Origin: Candidatus Gugararchaeum adminiculabundum
GTDB lineage: Archaea; Micrarchaeota; Micrarchaeia; Burarchaeales; Gugararchaeaceae
Direction of reading: 5' to 3'
DNA: 52,666 nucleotides
Assembly: GCA_902384795.1 (NCBI GenBank)
Contig: CABMDC010000020.1
Coordinates: forward strand, 1 to 52,666
Part shown: piece by piece, positions 16,708-38,113 of the stretch
Numbering within the stretch: the first letter of the stretch is position 1
Layout: the number at the start of each line of letters is the position of its first letter
Notes under the pieces: model-generated
What the model was told of the DNA's origin: nothing
What the model saw: only the letters and a program-made list of their open reading frames with translations
Databases searched by the model: none
Translations under genes and position numbers: made by a program

Positions 16708-18708
16708 ATGTCCAAAATCAGCCAAACCTCAGATCAAGCAGATATGATATTAAAAACAAGCCCAAGAACTCTCCACATTCTGGGATGGCAGGACTGGAAA
16801 GCATTCATAAAAAACAGGGATTTTGACATCTCCTTCGCCGGTTTGGTCCAGCTTGCAAAAAACCACCCCGACTGGGCGGTCATAAATCTTTCAGAGCATC
16901 TGGAAAGGGCAAACAATGCCAAGACCCAGCAGGAAAGAAAGCGCGAACTTTCCTATGTGAAGCACTTCATAGAATCCATGTCAGCCGAACTCAATAATCC
17001 GGATTTTCTCCAGAATTTCACCCCCGGCGAGATAAAGCAGGTGCAGGGCATATGGGCGGCATTCGCCCCGGATGTGAAGGGGGTGAAGATCACAAAGGAA
17101 AATGCGCCTGATTTTTTAAATACTGCCAAAAAATCCAATTTTGGAATAGAAAAACAGTTCAAGGAGCTCTTTGCCGGCCAAAGTGAAGCAGCCATGGAAA
17201 GGGAAGCATACGAATACGGGTTCTTGGACATGCTGAAAACCTCCGTTGAGCTGGGTATTTTCGACCTGGATTTTAAGGGAGATTTCCGAGATCTGACAAA
17301 AATCCTTTTCCATGGCAAGGAATCACAGACCTATTCCTATGGATATATGGTGGGAACAGACCTGCACGTCTACAAATTCGTGTGCGATAATCCGCAATTC
17401 ATAAAAACCGGCACAGGCGAAGGCAACATCATTTTGATGGACGATGCGGGGAACACGCTCATGATGAAATGCTCCGAAGCAAGGAAAATCGGCCTGCTGG
17501 CTTCAATCTCCTCAGGAAAAACCAATGGCAAGCCCATGTACCTGCCTTCTCCAGGAGGCGTAACCCAAGCCACCATGCCGTCTCACTACCAAATCTACTC
17601 AAAGACAAAGGCAGAGAAGTTTCAGAAACTAGATCGCCTAATAACTATCCAGACCAGAATATCTGATTTCTGGCGCTTTTTCGAGTCAGAACGGACAGGA
17701 AGGAAATTCGACGACATCGAGGCGCCAAAGGAGTACAGTTCAATCAAAACCTGGCTCGGATCAAAATCCGGCGCCCTGTTCTCAGGATTGAAAACACCCC
17801 TGCCAGGCAATGCCACTTCCGAGCTGATGTCCCCTGACCTGCTTGACAGCCGTAAGCGCGATTATGGGAGCAACTATGTCGGAATCAGCTTGGAAGGCGC
17901 CAGGGCAATGAACCAGCAAGTCGCAGAGGACGCCGCCTATGCCTGGGGCAACAGCGCAGAGATATTCGGCACAAAGTCAGTTCCGGATTATTTCAAGGGT
18001 TTCCCGGACCTTAGCTGGTGGAAAAAATTCGGGGTGAGCACAAAAGATTTCGTGGTCGAGCTCGTCCCTTTTACCACTTCCATTGGAATGCTGATTAATG
18101 AGAAATATACGAGCGTGATAAGTTATGCTTACGGCGAGGCCGCTTCTGGCTACAGCGCAAAAGAAGACCGAAACCAGACCATTGCGGCGGCTGCCTATGC
18201 GGGCTTGGATTTCGTCGTATTCTTTGGCGGGCCAGTGGCAAAAGGCATAATGAAACCAGGGGAAAAGGCTCTGGTCATGGCAAGCCGCGAATTAGTCGAT
18301 ACTTCCCTGGAAGGCTTGATGCGCAGCGGAAGGCAGTTTGATCTAAATGCGATCTCAGCGCTGTTGAAAAGTTCAGGGAAGGAGTTTACCATTGACGAGA
18401 TAAGCAAGATGTCAGAGAGGCAAATACTTCAGGAGATAGGCCCAAAGACATTCGGCAAATTCCTCGCCCCCGTCTTCCTGCAATCCGGTGATGATTTGTC
18501 GCAATTGAGCTTGCGCAGGCAGATAGCACATTCGGAATTTTTGATGCGCGACGCGGAACGCCAGTTCGGCTTCAAGCTTACCCCGCTGGACCAGTTCAGG
18601 ATGCTGAAGGCAATGCGCGGGTCAAGAATCATCCGCGTTGAGTTCATCCCGAACGAAGTTGGGAGCGAAGCCGCGGATATTCCGGCCAAGGCAGTTCGAT
18701 ACCGTTAA
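16708..18708 (+). CDS. Large protein of unknown function (666 residues)
   Basis: I do not recognise this protein. It has no signal peptide. Residues ~1-160 are helical. Residues ~200-330 contain beta-rich segments around FDLDFKGDFRDLTKILFHGK and EGNIILMDDAGNTLMM. A moderately hydrophobic stretch at ~505-520 (AAAYAGLDFVVFFGGPVAKG) might contact membrane. The C-terminal ~140 residues are helical (RRQIAHSEFLMRDAERQFGFKLTPLDQFRMLKAM). It sits in an operon behind two small paralogues. Its last 71 nt overlap the open frame of the next gene, raising the possibility of one interrupted reading frame. Confidence 0.65.
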   Translation: MSKISQTSDQADMILKTSPRTLHILGWQDWKAFIKNRDFDISFAGLVQLAKNHPDWAVINLSEHLERANNAKTQQERKRELSYVKHFIESMSAELNNPDFLQNFTPGEIKQVQGIWAAFAPDVKGVKITKENAPDFLNTAKKSNFGIEKQFKELFAGQSEAAMEREAYEYGFLDMLKTSVELGIFDLDFKGDFRDLTKILFHGKESQTYSYGYMVGTDLHVYKFVCDNPQFIKTGTGEGNIILMDDAGNTLMMKCSEARKIGLLASISSGKTNGKPMYLPSPGGVTQATMPSHYQIYSKTKAEKFQKLDRLITIQTRISDFWRFFESERTGRKFDDIEAPKEYSSIKTWLGSKSGALFSGLKTPLPGNATSELMSPDLLDSRKRDYGSNYVGISLEGARAMNQQVAEDAAYAWGNSAEIFGTKSVPDYFKGFPDLSWWKKFGVSTKDFVVELVPFTTSIGMLINEKYTSVISYAYGEAASGYSAKEDRNQTIAAAAYAGLDFVVFFGGPVAKGIMKPGEKALVMASRELVDTSLEGLMRSGRQFDLNAISALLKSSGKEFTIDEISKMSERQILQEIGPKTFGKFLAPVFLQSGDDLSQLSLRRQIAHSEFLMRDAERQFGFKLTPLDQFRMLKAMRGSRIIRVEFIPNEVGSEAADIPAKAVRYR

Positions 18709-18751
18709 ATATCGAAATTTGCAGAATTTTAACAGAGCATGGGATTCGGAG

Positions 18752-20611
18752 ATGAAGCGAATGGGTGTAACAGAACTTGCTGTAAGAAAAGGAGAAGGCC
18801 TTTTGCCCGAATTATTGGAATTCGGCATCAAGGCGTCTGTAGATCGCGGCACAGGAAGATTCATCATTTCCGAAGGGGCGAACAAGCTGCTAAAGCTTCC
18901 TGCAGCAGAGGCGCAGCGCTTGGTAGCCGCCAATGCTTTAACTGCAGGAGAAATCGACATTCTTTTTCCAAAGGACGTAGCCCAAAAGCTGAAGCCATTC
19001 GCCAGCCCGCCAGGGGCAGGGACTGATCTTGCAGGTTTCAACAAAATAACGGAAGAGTTCGGCGGAGAAGAAGAATCAAGTCGGGACAAATTAGAGCGAT
19101 TAGGGCCTGAATTAGAAAGCAAATATGGCATAAAAGAAAACAAGGAAGGAGTATTTATGCTTGTAGACCTGCACGATGGCCAGGGCAAGGAGTACATCAC
19201 GTTGCATGGCAGAGCCGCGTACATCCTGAATGGTTTTGATTTTAAGGGAATAACCCCGCAAGAGTTGGCAGAGATACATGAATACATGCGTTTGGCTGTG
19301 GACACTGGAGTCTCGCAAAGCCGCAATCGTGGGAAGCTTATTGATGGCGTGCTTGAAATAGTTGATTCAAGCGCCCCGGCAGTCGCGGCCAAATTATACC
19401 GGCAGCAGGGGGAAATCGAGAAAGCGCTGCCTTTCGAAGAAAAGGCCAAAAAGAAGCGTTTAGCGCAGGTCGCGACCAAGAAGGAGGACATCATTAATTT
19501 GGCGAATACCAAATCCCGTGAAGCATCCGGCCTGGAACGGAAAGCGGACGAATATGCGTTTCCAATCAAAACCTCAGTGAAAGAATTCTCGAAAGCCAGG
19601 GAAAATTATGCAGAGGCGCATAAGAAATACACCGAAGCCGCCAACCTTATGGAACAAGCAGGAGATAAAGCCGGGGCAAGAAGCTACAGGAAATCCGCAG
19701 ACCAGACCTCCCCCGAAGCCCTTAACAAAAAATTGATTGCGCGGGCAGATAATTTGGAAGAATTAGGGGACCGCGGATCTAAGGAAGGAGGTAGTGGACG
19801 ACATAAAGATGCAGGAAAAAACTACGACGAAGCGTATGAATTTGCGCGCGAAGCGGGAGCGCATGACCGGGCCATCACACTGCTGAAAAAGGCTGCAGAA
19901 GCCTATGTCGGCGCAGGCGAATTAGACCTAGCTTGTAACAGATTCATCTCCCTGGCGATTGAAGCTGAAACAGCAGGGGATAGTGCCAAAGCAGCAAAAC
20001 TTTATAGCAGAGCAGCGGATCTATACACATCGAGTTATTCCCGATTCGTAGAGGACACGACTTTAGCGCCCCCAGGGCTCCATAAGCTGTGGGAAGAATA
20101 TTACTCCTATGGCAGTAACCTCCGTAGAAGGAACAGAGCCGGGGCTCCAGTGGCAGAGTTAGTCGGGTATCAGAAAGACATGCAGGGAATACAAAAAGAC
20201 ATTGAAAAACTCAAGGCTAATTACCCGGAATTTTACAAGGTTCCCATAGAGGAGAGAACCCAACGGCTTGCATATCTTGCCCGAGCGCTTGAGGCGTACA
20301 GCAATGCTGCTGAGCAGTACACTGCTGCAAAACAGATGGACAGTGCACGGTATGCTGCAAAAAAGGCAGCCGAAATCTGCGATTTAATTAATTTGACAAT
20401 ACCCACTGGCGGCATAAGCGACGGCGACGCCAAATCCATAGCGGCTAAGTTCAAATTCTTATATAAAAGAGAAGGTATACCGGTAGGAGATTGGCTGCCC
20501 CTTCACACACGCTTGGAAAACGTTCCCCAAGGGCAAAAACCTTCCCTTTCACTGCTCCAGATCATTTCTGATTATTCCCAGAAAATGAGGGAAATAGCAA
20601 CGCCGCCCTGA
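18752..20611 (+). CDS. Helical-repeat (TPR-like) protein of unknown function
   Basis: The protein is 619 residues from ATG 18752; the frame is open back to TTG 18638. ATG 18761, with GGAGATGA upstream, is another candidate start. Residues ~250-460 (counted from ATG 18752) are helical hairpins of TPR character: FSKARENYAEAHKKYTEAAN, DKAGARSYRKSA, HKDAGKNYDEAYEFAREAG, RAITLLKKAAEAYVGAGE and AKAAKLYSRAADLY. Near the C-terminus comes LARALEAYSNAAEQYTAAKQ. Such repeats usually mediate protein assembly. It is last in the 16186-20611 unit. The codons between 18709 and 18752 also read as plausible protein, so a frameshift joining it to the previous gene cannot be excluded. Confidence 0.65.
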   Translation: MKRMGVTELAVRKGEGLLPELLEFGIKASVDRGTGRFIISEGANKLLKLPAAEAQRLVAANALTAGEIDILFPKDVAQKLKPFASPPGAGTDLAGFNKITEEFGGEEESSRDKLERLGPELESKYGIKENKEGVFMLVDLHDGQGKEYITLHGRAAYILNGFDFKGITPQELAEIHEYMRLAVDTGVSQSRNRGKLIDGVLEIVDSSAPAVAAKLYRQQGEIEKALPFEEKAKKKRLAQVATKKEDIINLANTKSREASGLERKADEYAFPIKTSVKEFSKARENYAEAHKKYTEAANLMEQAGDKAGARSYRKSADQTSPEALNKKLIARADNLEELGDRGSKEGGSGRHKDAGKNYDEAYEFAREAGAHDRAITLLKKAAEAYVGAGELDLACNRFISLAIEAETAGDSAKAAKLYSRAADLYTSSYSRFVEDTTLAPPGLHKLWEEYYSYGSNLRRRNRAGAPVAELVGYQKDMQGIQKDIEKLKANYPEFYKVPIEERTQRLAYLARALEAYSNAAEQYTAAKQMDSARYAAKKAAEICDLINLTIPTGGISDGDAKSIAAKFKFLYKREGIPVGDWLPLHTRLENVPQGQKPSLSLLQIISDYSQKMREIATPP

Positions 20612-23386: not shown

Positions 23387-25102
23387 TTAGCGTTTAATTC
23401 TGCTATCCTTTACATCTATTCCAGTCTTCCCCCTAGGCTGGACCATTTTCACTCCTGCCACTTCCCCGGGCGGGACAAATTTAGCCTCATTTCGCGCACT
23501 TCTCAACACTCCCATTTTTCCATCATCAAGCAAGGGCAGCTCGTTTTCTTTTTTGCCCCACGTCTTCCCCCCATACCCCAATCCCTGCGCTTTCTCCTTA
23601 ACCCCGGGATTTTTCTCAAACATCTTTGCTATCCGGTTCCTCATGGTAAGCTCGGTCTGATCCGGCTGTCCAGTTAATTCTGCAAGTTTCCCAAGTGTTA
23701 CCCTTCCCTGCGTTTCCACATCCCATTTTTCCAGAATTTCCTCAACATGCTGCTTGAGCGTCTTTACTCCGCTTTTTTCCTTAAACAGTTTTTTTAGTTT
23801 ACTTCTATGCTCCAAGTTTTGCTTAATTATCTCCGCGCCCAGCCCTGTCGGTCCCTCCAGCGCTTCAGGAGTTGCCGGCCCCTGCGTTTCCACATCCCAC
23901 TTCCCCAGGGCTTTCGCAATCAGCTTTTCCTCAAATTTCGAATCCCCATACCCGAACTTTTCAGCTTTTTTCTTAAGTTGAGGTTTTTCCTCGAACAATT
24001 TGCGGACTGTCACATTGCTTCTGCCCGCTTTTTTAGCAAGCCTTCTCAGGGTAATCCTTCCCAGTTTCAAATCCCAGTTCTCTATTGCTTCCTTGACTGC
24101 CGAATAAGTGTTGCCCTTTAGTTTTTCCATTGGGGCGTATCCCTTCTCCTTAGCGAGTTTTTTCAGTTTTTTGTCCTTCTCGATTATCTTCAGAATTACC
24201 GTGCTGGACACGCCAATCTTTTCTGCCAGCCTTTTGATTTTCAGATCCCCCTGTTTCTCCCTGTCCCATTCTTCCAATGCTTTTGTGATTTTCCTCCTGT
24301 TCTTCCAGCTCTGAACCCCATACCCGCCATTTTCCTTGGCCAGTTTCCTCAGAGCTGGGTTTTCCCTGAATACATCCGCAATTGTGGAATTGCTCAGCCC
24401 TGTTTTTCTGATCAGCTTCTTCAGCGTCATCTGCCCCTGCTTCTCCACGTCCCACTCCTTTACTATTTTTGCGAGCTTTTCCCTCTTTTTCCATGCAGGT
24501 TTTCCGTATCCCTTCTTATCCGCCAGTTTTTTCAGCCCTGGATTTTTCTTGAATATTCTGCACATTGCCGAAGAGTTTAACCCTGTTTTCCGCCTAAGCT
24601 TTCTCGGCGACATCCGCCCCTGCTTCTCCACATCCCACTCCGTTACATGTTTTTCAAGTCTTTTCCTGCTTTTCCACCCTCTATCCCCGTACCCTTTCTT
24701 TTTTGCCATGCGCATGATTCCCGGTCTTTCGCTAAGCCTTTTCTTGATCAAGCCAGGGTATGCCTTGGTTTTCCCAATCAGCTTATTCAGCGTAATCTGC
24801 CCCTGCTTCTCCACATCCCATTCCCTTACTATTTTTCCAAGCTTTTTCGCCCTGCCCCTGCGCAGATTTCCATAGCCCTTATTCTCGGCTTTTCTCCTCA
24901 GCCCCGGTTTTTCCTTGAATTTCTTTTTGATTGTCGACGGGCTCATATTTGCCTTTTTTGCCAATTTTTTCAGCGTTATTAATCCCTGCCCCTTCACCTT
25001 CCATTCGTCTATAGTCTCCCTAAGCCGACGCTCCGCTGCTTCCCTCTTTCTCATAGTTGCCCAAGAAGTTCTCTTTTTTCTCCTCACTGGTTCATTCGTC
25101 AC
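23387..25102 (-). CDS. Tandem helix-turn-helix-repeat (HTH-array) protein
   Basis: A 571-residue, strongly basic protein with eight ~55-residue repeats at about residues 23-78, 85-139, 146-200, 207-262, 269-322, 333-386, 392-445 and 451-511. Each repeat opens with a helix and W-D-V-E-x-Q-G; the Trp positions are 34, 95, 156, 217, 279, 343, 402 and 460. Next comes a TLxKL...TGLSxSTI segment that reads as a helix-turn-helix, then NPxLxKLAxxKGYG. Such repeats suggest multivalent DNA binding; I know of no family with this arrangement. The ~60-residue C-terminal tail is non-repetitive. The start is GTG 25102, with GGTGGGGGAG upstream. The promoter box at 25129-25160 is shared with the GAF gene at 32024. 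Confidence 0.8.
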   Translation of the reverse strand: MTNEPVRRKKRTSWATMRKREAAERRLRETIDEWKVKGQGLITLKKLAKKANMSPSTIKKKFKEKPGLRRKAENKGYGNLRRGRAKKLGKIVREWDVEKQGQITLNKLIGKTKAYPGLIKKRLSERPGIMRMAKKKGYGDRGWKSRKRLEKHVTEWDVEKQGRMSPRKLRRKTGLNSSAMCRIFKKNPGLKKLADKKGYGKPAWKKREKLAKIVKEWDVEKQGQMTLKKLIRKTGLSNSTIADVFRENPALRKLAKENGGYGVQSWKNRRKITKALEEWDREKQGDLKIKRLAEKIGVSSTVILKIIEKDKKLKKLAKEKGYAPMEKLKGNTYSAVKEAIENWDLKLGRITLRRLAKKAGRSNVTVRKLFEEKPQLKKKAEKFGYGDSKFEEKLIAKALGKWDVETQGPATPEALEGPTGLGAEIIKQNLEHRSKLKKLFKEKSGVKTLKQHVEEILEKWDVETQGRVTLGKLAELTGQPDQTELTMRNRIAKMFEKNPGVKEKAQGLGYGGKTWGKKENELPLLDDGKMGVLRSARNEAKFVPPGEVAGVKMVQPRGKTGIDVKDSRIKR

Positions 25103-25128
25103 GTTTCTACTCCCCCACCCATGTAAAT

Positions 25129-25160
25129 CGTTATAGTTTATGTATATTAATGATTATAAA
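25129..25160 (-). promoter_or_regulatory. Promoter box shared with the GAF/kinase-like gene (copy 1)
   Basis: On the + strand this begins CGTTATAGTTTATGTA (25129-25144), has T at 25145, continues ATTAATG (25146-25152) and ends with TATAAA (25155-25160). Counting the three mismatches, 29 of 32 positions match the box at 32088-32119. On the minus strand the TTTATA end can act as TATA box, with transcription starting near the CATAAACTATAACG end about 27 nt before GTG 25102. Confidence 0.75.
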
Positions 25161-25191
25161 CCGTTCTTTCAGCCAAACTAAAGAAGAAGGA

Positions 25192-25208
25192 TGCTCCGTC
25201 CGCGGAGC
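25192..25208 (-). repeat. Copy of the tRNA-Glu 3' end in a small hairpin
   Basis: Eleven bases (25192-25202) repeat the 3' terminus of tRNA-Glu (25344-25354; CGGACGGAGCA on the minus strand). They are preceded on the minus strand by GCTCCG, the start of the same acceptor stem, so the 17 nt fold as a mini-helix. It may be a decayed tRNA fragment or an old recombination site. No integrase is nearby. Confidence 0.45.
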
Positions 25209-25263
25209 CAACTTGGTTTTCCAATCCAGGCCCCGAACCCCTCAAAACACAAAGAAGCACCAG

Positions 25264-25314
25264 TTAGCTGCGGATAACTGCTCCCGCGGCAAGCGCGCTC
25301 GCAGTTATCCTAAC
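25264..25314. other. Strong stem-loop downstream of tRNA-Glu
   Basis: GGATAACTGC (25272-25281) pairs perfectly with GCAGTTATCC (25301-25310) around a GC-rich 19-nt loop. GTTA (25263-25266) and TAAC (25311-25314) can extend the stem past a 5-nt bulge. It lies on the 3' side of the tRNA-Glu transcript and could be a processing or stability element, or a small RNA. No known RNA family was recognised. Confidence 0.5.
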
Positions 25315-25343
25315 CAATCTCCGAGATAATAAAAAAGAAATAG

Positions 25344-25458
25344 TGCTCCGTCCGGGATTTGAACCCGGGTCGCCGCCTATCACTGGACGGATCCGCTTTT
25401 TGTAAAGGGTCGCCGCCTTGAGAGGGCGATATCCTTGACCGAGCTAGACGAACGGAGC
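25344..25458 (-). tRNA. tRNA-Glu(CTC) with a 40-nt intron
   Basis: The acceptor stem pairs GCTCCGT with ACGGAGC, and an A lies at the discriminator position. The T arm is GGGTTCAAATCCC, and the anticodon loop CTCTCAA gives anticodon CTC. The mature tRNA is 75 nt. The gene has 40 extra nt, most simply an intron after position 37 (minus-strand bases 25418-25379). The intron begins with a copy of the exon sequence AGGCGGCGACCC, so the exact boundary is ambiguous from sequence. A relaxed bulge-helix-bulge can be drawn at the canonical site with 3 of 4 central pairs. The sequence ends without an encoded CCA. Confidence 0.9.
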
Positions 25459-37484: not shown

Positions 37485-37546
37485 ATCGTTCTTTAAATCG
37501 AACGATAATTCTTTATATCGAACGATAGTTTTATATATCGAACGCT
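37485..37546 (+). promoter_or_regulatory. Three 20-bp operator repeats before the MNT-HEPN module
   Basis: TCGAACG recurs at exactly 20-bp spacing: GAACGAT at 37500 and 37520, and GAACGCT at 37540, each preceded by a TTTA(A/T)ATC-like segment. The first is also the right half of the palindrome ATCGTTC (37485-37491) / GAACGAT (37500-37506). The last repeat contains TTTATATATC, the likely TATA box, 13 nt before the ATG at 37559. The winged-helix domain of the downstream protein is the obvious candidate binder. Confidence 0.7.
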
Positions 37547-37558
37547 CCTAACACAATC

Positions 37559-38113
37559 ATGAACCTATTCTCCGAGACAATCCGGTGGAACCTGCTTTCC
37601 TTTCTTTTCAAAAAACCAGAAGCGGAGTTCTATGTCAACGAGCTGGCAAGAGCCATGAATGCAAGTGCAAGCTCTGTTTCCATAACCTGCAGAGAGCTGA
37701 GCGAGAATGGCATTCTCAATAAATCAAAGAAAGGAAATTCCTTATTTTACTCCCTAAACAATTCAAACCCCTTAACCAAACTGGAGAAATCCGCATGGTT
37801 TCTTGCCCAGTTGCTTCCTTTAAGCAAGGCATGGGAGAACGAGGAATTCCAGTCCGTAGCCCTTTATGGTTCCTATGCTTCAGGCGAATTCATCTCAAAA
37901 AGCGATATTGACTTCATAATAATCACAAATGTGCCGGATTCAAAAGTGAGTGAATCATTCAGGCTGTTGAAAAGCAAATTACGCGCTGAAGTCAACATTA
38001 CGGTATTTTCAGTTTCATCCTGGAGAAAAATGGCAAAGGAAGGGGACCGATTTTATATCGAAGTAATCTCCAATCATATACCCCTATATGGCAGTTCACT
38101 GGTGATAGGTTGA
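37559..38113 (+). CDS. HTH-nucleotidyltransferase (MNT) protein
   Basis: The protein has 184 residues: an N-terminal winged helix (FYVNELARAMNASASSVSITCRELSENGIL, ~25-54) and a MNT-type nucleotidyltransferase domain with GSYASGEFISKSDIDFIII (~104-122), containing the GS and D-x-D catalytic residues. In MNT-HEPN pairs the nucleotidyltransferase modifies and silences the HEPN toxin. The HTH fusion suggests autoregulation through the repeats just upstream. Its stop overlaps the HEPN start as TTGA. Confidence 0.85.
   Translation: MNLFSETIRWNLLSFLFKKPEAEFYVNELARAMNASASSVSITCRELSENGILNKSKKGNSLFYSLNNSNPLTKLEKSAWFLAQLLPLSKAWENEEFQSVALYGSYASGEFISKSDIDFIIITNVPDSKVSESFRLLKSKLRAEVNITVFSVSSWRKMAKEGDRFYIEVISNHIPLYGSSLVIG

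Follow-up and report, generated by a model that had tools for sequence, protein, structure and literature searches.

We were interested in a gene whose product appears to string together eight helix-turn-helix (HTH) units, far in excess of the usual one or two per chain; what would such an array bind, and to what use would it be put? The gene belongs to a Micrarchaeota genome and lies on the minus strand of the window, by which we mean the whole 52,666-nt stretch of DNA that was analysed. Its open reading frame, length and strand, as well as the eight tryptophan positions (34, 95, 156, 217, 279, 343, 402, 460), are exactly as described in a first-pass annotation of this DNA, and codon usage prefers the minus-strand frame at 23387-25102 over the other five. 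Judged by the composition of its translation, the 571-aa protein is strongly basic (pI 10.4, 27% K+R). The gene and its parts are as follows.

23387-25102, minus strand: whole gene, encoding the array of eight HTH units (571 aa) from a GTG start
24863-25039, minus strand: unit 1, residues 22-80; together with unit 5, the strongest single-unit HTH resemblance (HTH_7, HTH_38, TetR_N; all below cut-off)
24680-24856, minus strand: unit 2, residues 83-141
24497-24673, minus strand: unit 3, residues 144-202; N-terminal member of the modelled pair
24311-24490, minus strand: unit 4, residues 205-264; C-terminal member of the modelled pair
24128-24304, minus strand: unit 5, residues 267-325; weak match to HTH_11 as a single unit
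23939-24112, minus strand: unit 6, residues 331-388; WDxxxQG loop shorter by one residue
23762-23935, minus strand: unit 7, residues 390-447; the most diverged, lacking GYG, with helices 2 and 3 net negative
23564-23761, minus strand: unit 8, residues 448-513; 7-residue insertion near the turn
23390-23563, minus strand: C-terminal tail, residues 514-571 (58 residues); no predicted structure, pLDDT about 30-35

A profile of the unit finds all eight copies, consecutive and of ~61 residues each, across residues 22 to 513 or 86% of the protein (70.9 to 96.2 bits each), in good agreement with the eight tandem repeats over ~85% of the chain proposed earlier. Because this profile was made from those eight units themselves and is hence not independent of them, independent support for the repeat comes from aligning the protein with itself, where the mean BLOSUM62 score at an offset of 61 is +0.39, compared to -0.28 for the best offset over 1000 shuffles. 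Pairwise identity among the units is 22-55%, their consensus being xxxxxLxKxxxEWDVEKQGxxTLxKLAxKTGxSxxTIxKxFEExPGLKKLAKxKGYG, with a single Trp per unit that is invariant across the array. The signature elements named in the first-pass annotation hold for most units only: the opening WDVExQG is exact in five of the eight but reads WKVKGQG in unit 1, WDREKQG in unit 5 and WDLKLG in unit 6, while six units keep the closing GYG, which is replaced by GYA in unit 5 and degenerate in unit 7.

The case for an HTH fold is best made from the array as a whole. Summed over the array, scores exceed the respective cut-offs for seven Pfam HTH families, namely HTH_24 (40.3 bits against a cut-off of 21.9), HTH_11 (35.5/25), MarR (32.7/24.6), HTH_3 (31.4/23) and HTH_26 (28.3/22) and, narrowly, HTH_AsnC-type and HTH_DeoR. 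A shuffled and a reversed version of the protein, one of each, produced no HTH match, and no known non-DNA-binding repeat family was among the matches of the profile search. Taken singly, units 1, 4 and 5 match Pfam HTH models weakly and below cut-off, and the other units give no match. Since single units match so weakly or not at all, the assignment rests on the array and on structural modelling.

An AlphaFold model of units 3 and 4, for which five other unit pairs served as alignment, indeed showed an HTH in each unit (pLDDT 83.4, pTM 0.48), made of helices 25-32 and 36-45 in the first and 86-93 and 97-106 in the second, each time separated by a turn. Within a unit, a long helix 1 reaching to the Trp is followed by a short helical turn, after which come helices 2 and 3, with a turn between them, and finally helix 4. 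As helix 1 precedes and ends at the Trp, which it carries, the structural unit would start ~12 residues N-terminal to that residue; the repeat proposed in the first-pass annotation is real, but its unit boundary was thus drawn one helix too late. A full-length model from the single sequence was poor (pLDDT 56.4) yet displayed a similar order of helices along the chain, and with a pTM of 0.48 for the pair, the spatial arrangement of the units is unsure.

Searching the PDB and viral libraries with Foldseek returned nothing significant (PDB E above 1). When the Foldseek matches were re-examined with VIA-align, nearly all rows were HTH DNA-binding proteins, with TetR N-terminal domains foremost. 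The best row for unit 1 had a Z of 6.1 (rmsd 3.2, 57 aligned residues) and that for the unit pair, the AraC/XylS DNA-binding domain 3mn2, which covers both units, a Z of 5.3 (rmsd 5.2, 100 aligned), all rows falling below the Z of 8 from which a single match is trusted. The list was pre-selected by Foldseek, and we place weight on its uniformity, not on any one row. Matches from a PDB sequence search, mainly stathmin and haemagglutinin helices, were read as composition and set aside. Taken together, the array-wide profiles with their negative controls, the pair model and the fold comparison support the HTH-like character claimed for the repeats, whose predicted fold is most like that of TetR-type HTHs, albeit with weak scores.

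On the grounds of fold and charge, we consider it probable that the array protein is specific to its lineage and binds nucleic acid, most likely double-stranded DNA, in a multivalent manner. As part of this probable picture, short basic linkers would join the eight tandem homeodomain/TetR-like HTH units. The third helix of each unit would then be set into a DNA groove such that the array follows several turns of the DNA, and many weak contacts could sum to tight binding, either at one long site or on any stretch that suits. The most likely use would be regulation or local packaging of the organism's own chromosome. As a counterpoint, the charge by itself would fit RNA too.

Regulation and packaging correspond to two narrower forms of this explanation, and the properties of the helices bear on both. 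A net positive charge is found on helix 4 of every unit and on helix 2 of six. At exposed helix-3 positions, which were picked after viewing the alignment, mean entropy is 2.40 bits versus 1.65 for the average non-core position (permutation p 0.003). The recognition helices do vary, as noted in the first-pass annotation, but exposed helix-1 positions vary equally (mean entropy 2.45), which makes the variation a weak sign of modular specificity.

One form, a possible but doubtful one, is a nucleoid-associated, architectural protein that bridges or coats DNA with little sequence preference. Its strong basicity, the positive helix 4 throughout and a helix 3 that is not clearly more variable than helix 1 would all fit, although occurrence in one genome among about 300 of the phylum is odd for a basic packaging protein, and the TGLSxST-like turn retained in several units would be unneeded for packaging alone. 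The other form, which we entertain only tentatively, is a regulator or site marker with sequence specificity, each of whose units would read its own part of one long composite site. Here, the helix-3 residues that differ from unit to unit are as expected, and there is a precedent in the TnsD-like proteins of Tn7-type elements, which direct insertion and whose C-termini carry multiple HTHs (PMC10293859). Against it stand the equal variability of helix 1, the lack of a TniQ/TnsD domain in the array protein among 25 of 26 Pfam families at E up to 10, and the lack of any transposase recognised beside the gene, where SfsA, NYN, TPR/SNAP-like and OmdA neighbours were run against Pfam and the others judged by eye. 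Nor did the searches around the gene yield a candidate site: no tandem repeat was found that might serve as a target, and direct repeats mostly proved to be the gene's own units. Because exposed helix-1 positions vary as much as those of helix 3, the data leave sequence reading versus packaging undecided, and we regard the two as about equally likely, with RNA binding less likely than either.

Two further observations concern the wider window. Directly before an ORF at 37559, an A+T-rich unit of 20 bases containing ATCGAACG occurs in three near-copies at positions 37489-37544, an operator-like arrangement. In addition, two large adjoining ORFs occupy 16708-18708 and 18638-20611 on the plus strand, the second with SNAP/TPR-like stretches and the first without a clear family.

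The surroundings of the gene are relevant to two other explanations. On the same strand upstream lie tRNA-Glu, with an intron, and tRNA-Ala, followed by LSm, NYN and TatD; downstream, SfsA is convergent. NYN and SfsA were named via Pfam, while LSm, TatD, aIF5A and S24e were named by eye from their sequences. The two features closest to the start of the array gene are the following.

25343-25458, minus strand: tRNA-Glu (CUC) with an intron of ~40 bases, found by ARAGORN with introns allowed and missed by its default run
25103-25342, minus strand: upstream region after tRNA-Glu, with A+T-rich TTTATAAT, resembling an archaeal TATA box, and, just 5' of the GTG, a G-rich stretch (both by eye)

The TATA-like stretch sits ~50-60 bases 5' of the GTG (again by eye), and the region is a candidate for the array gene's own promoter and ribosome-binding site.

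With tRNA-Glu, tRNA-Ala, LSm and NYN as neighbours, a basic charge and a SelB winged-helix fragment among the weak fold matches, one might think of an array that grips structured RNA in the manner of the tandem winged helices of SelB. We consider this unlikely. DNA-binding HTHs overwhelm the fold matches, and the order aIF5A-TatD-NYN-LSm is kept in most of ten relatives, often followed by tRNA-Ala, with the array absent; since the TatD-NYN-LSm block occurs there without the array, the neighbourhood carries little weight. The array gene itself sits at the edge of this conserved block, between its tRNA end and SfsA, and such a position, coupled with absence from relatives, is what a recently acquired mobile or defence element inserted beside a tRNA gene would show. 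That origin, which the first-pass annotation had raised as an option, nonetheless strikes us as highly improbable: no mobile, recombinase, integrase or defence gene was recognised adjacent to it, PADLOC families appear only as weak HTH look-alikes, the base composition and codon usage of the gene match those of its neighbours, no match came from the phages, plasmids and viral contigs searched, and the genome carries paralogues on a different contig.

These paralogues, elsewhere in a draft assembly (G000; 1.47 Mb, 26 contigs, 93% complete), conserve the array protein. On contig C22, the unit profile finds four clear and three doubtful units, hence up to 7, in a 478-aa protein (P0003), and two units in a 594-aa frame open to the contig end (P0002). 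Contig C2, too, carries a unit, placed at its left edge in a frame that the contig end truncates. The left end of C2 (L025 1-200) and the right end of C22 (L007 9368-9773) share 93% DNA identity along 142 bases and 83% along 183 bases; at both ends a linker EKPPKAEKP precedes a unit. Either the assembly broke within one array gene, which from these sequences seems most likely, or two strain versions exist; as the gene is cut by the contig ends, its unit counts are those visible on each side. Under either explanation, the 93% identity in DNA points to recent copies, and the units at these ends have probably been duplicated recently.

Beside the arrays on C22, a 1287-aa orphan protein (P0004, L007 2512-6375) has one HTH_17-like stretch just under cut-off. 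It shares a weakly similar stretch with another orphan, a 662-aa protein on contig C4 (L078 6070-8058).

Outside the genome, the unit profile was run on 295 genomes of the class and gave no further match beyond a generic one in G087. When 301 genomes of the phylum were searched with a profile of the unit pair, two matches came up, both marginal: an Lrp-like regulator in G233 and a protein of another genome (P0005). The G087 match is to an SMC-like gene with an apparent intein (L027 25-5025) and that in G233 to an AsnC/Lrp-like protein, both judged by eye; these, as well as a 156-aa HTH-like protein on contig C18, were dismissed as generic. The viral_contigs, phages, plasmids and genome_contigs collections yielded no close relatives; for viral and genome contigs the scans used short exact peptide patterns, which are blind to distant relatives. 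With the unit present in at least two other multi-copy genes of the genome and no relative in about 300 genomes of the phylum, the array looks lineage-specific. The first-pass annotation knew of no described family with this plan, and likewise no named one was found in Pfam, NCBIfam, PHROGs or PADLOC, nor did we find a paper on such arrays in Micrarchaeota.

The near-identical units of one paralogue present a natural case of DNA-binding array growth. Going further, arrays of a private HTH unit might grow by duplication, each unit reading a few bases, to address very long sites with several arrays per genome, a conjecture that we rate as decidedly unlikely. If the units do read sequence in order, archaea would have supplied a new modular scaffold for DNA reading; otherwise, the protein would be an unusual basic DNA organiser in a small-genome archaeal lineage.

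How, then, does the array compare with known proteins? Several HTHs per chain are found in AraC proteins, SelB and Myb proteins. The eukaryotic Myb repeats are tandem three-helix HTH-like units with conserved tryptophans, but they have three Trp per unit versus the one invariant Trp of the array unit. AraC/XylS proteins also carry more than one HTH per chain but only two, and the array protein falls below cut-off for both HTH_AraC (21.2 bits/26.6) and HTH_18 (17.6/33.6).

Closest in fold is the TetR/AcrR family, whose N-terminal HTH supplies most rows in both fold comparisons. The array unit resembles TetR_N (PF00440) in its succession of helix 1, G, helix 2 (TLxxLAxxTG), helix 3, F..K..L and helix 4, although the array protein, at 20.2 bits, does not reach the Pfam cut-off of 24. 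It further differs in having no ligand or dimerisation domain, the remaining chain being further units and a tail with no predicted structure, and in placing eight units in one chain where a TetR subunit has one HTH.

A parallel in architecture is P0005 (L030 694-1947), encoded in another micrarchaeotal genome (G252) and with weak relatives in two other genomes of the class, which is likewise made up of tandem HTH units, ~seven in number. Its units are of a different HTH type, strongly HTH_7/HTH_38, lack the W...QG and GYG elements and match the present profile only marginally. TnsD-type target selectors of Tn7-like elements share the feature of several HTH domains per chain (PMC10293859), but the array protein has no TniQ/TnsD domain among the matches listed. 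Among the families tested, the array protein is a member of the broad HTH superfamily only.
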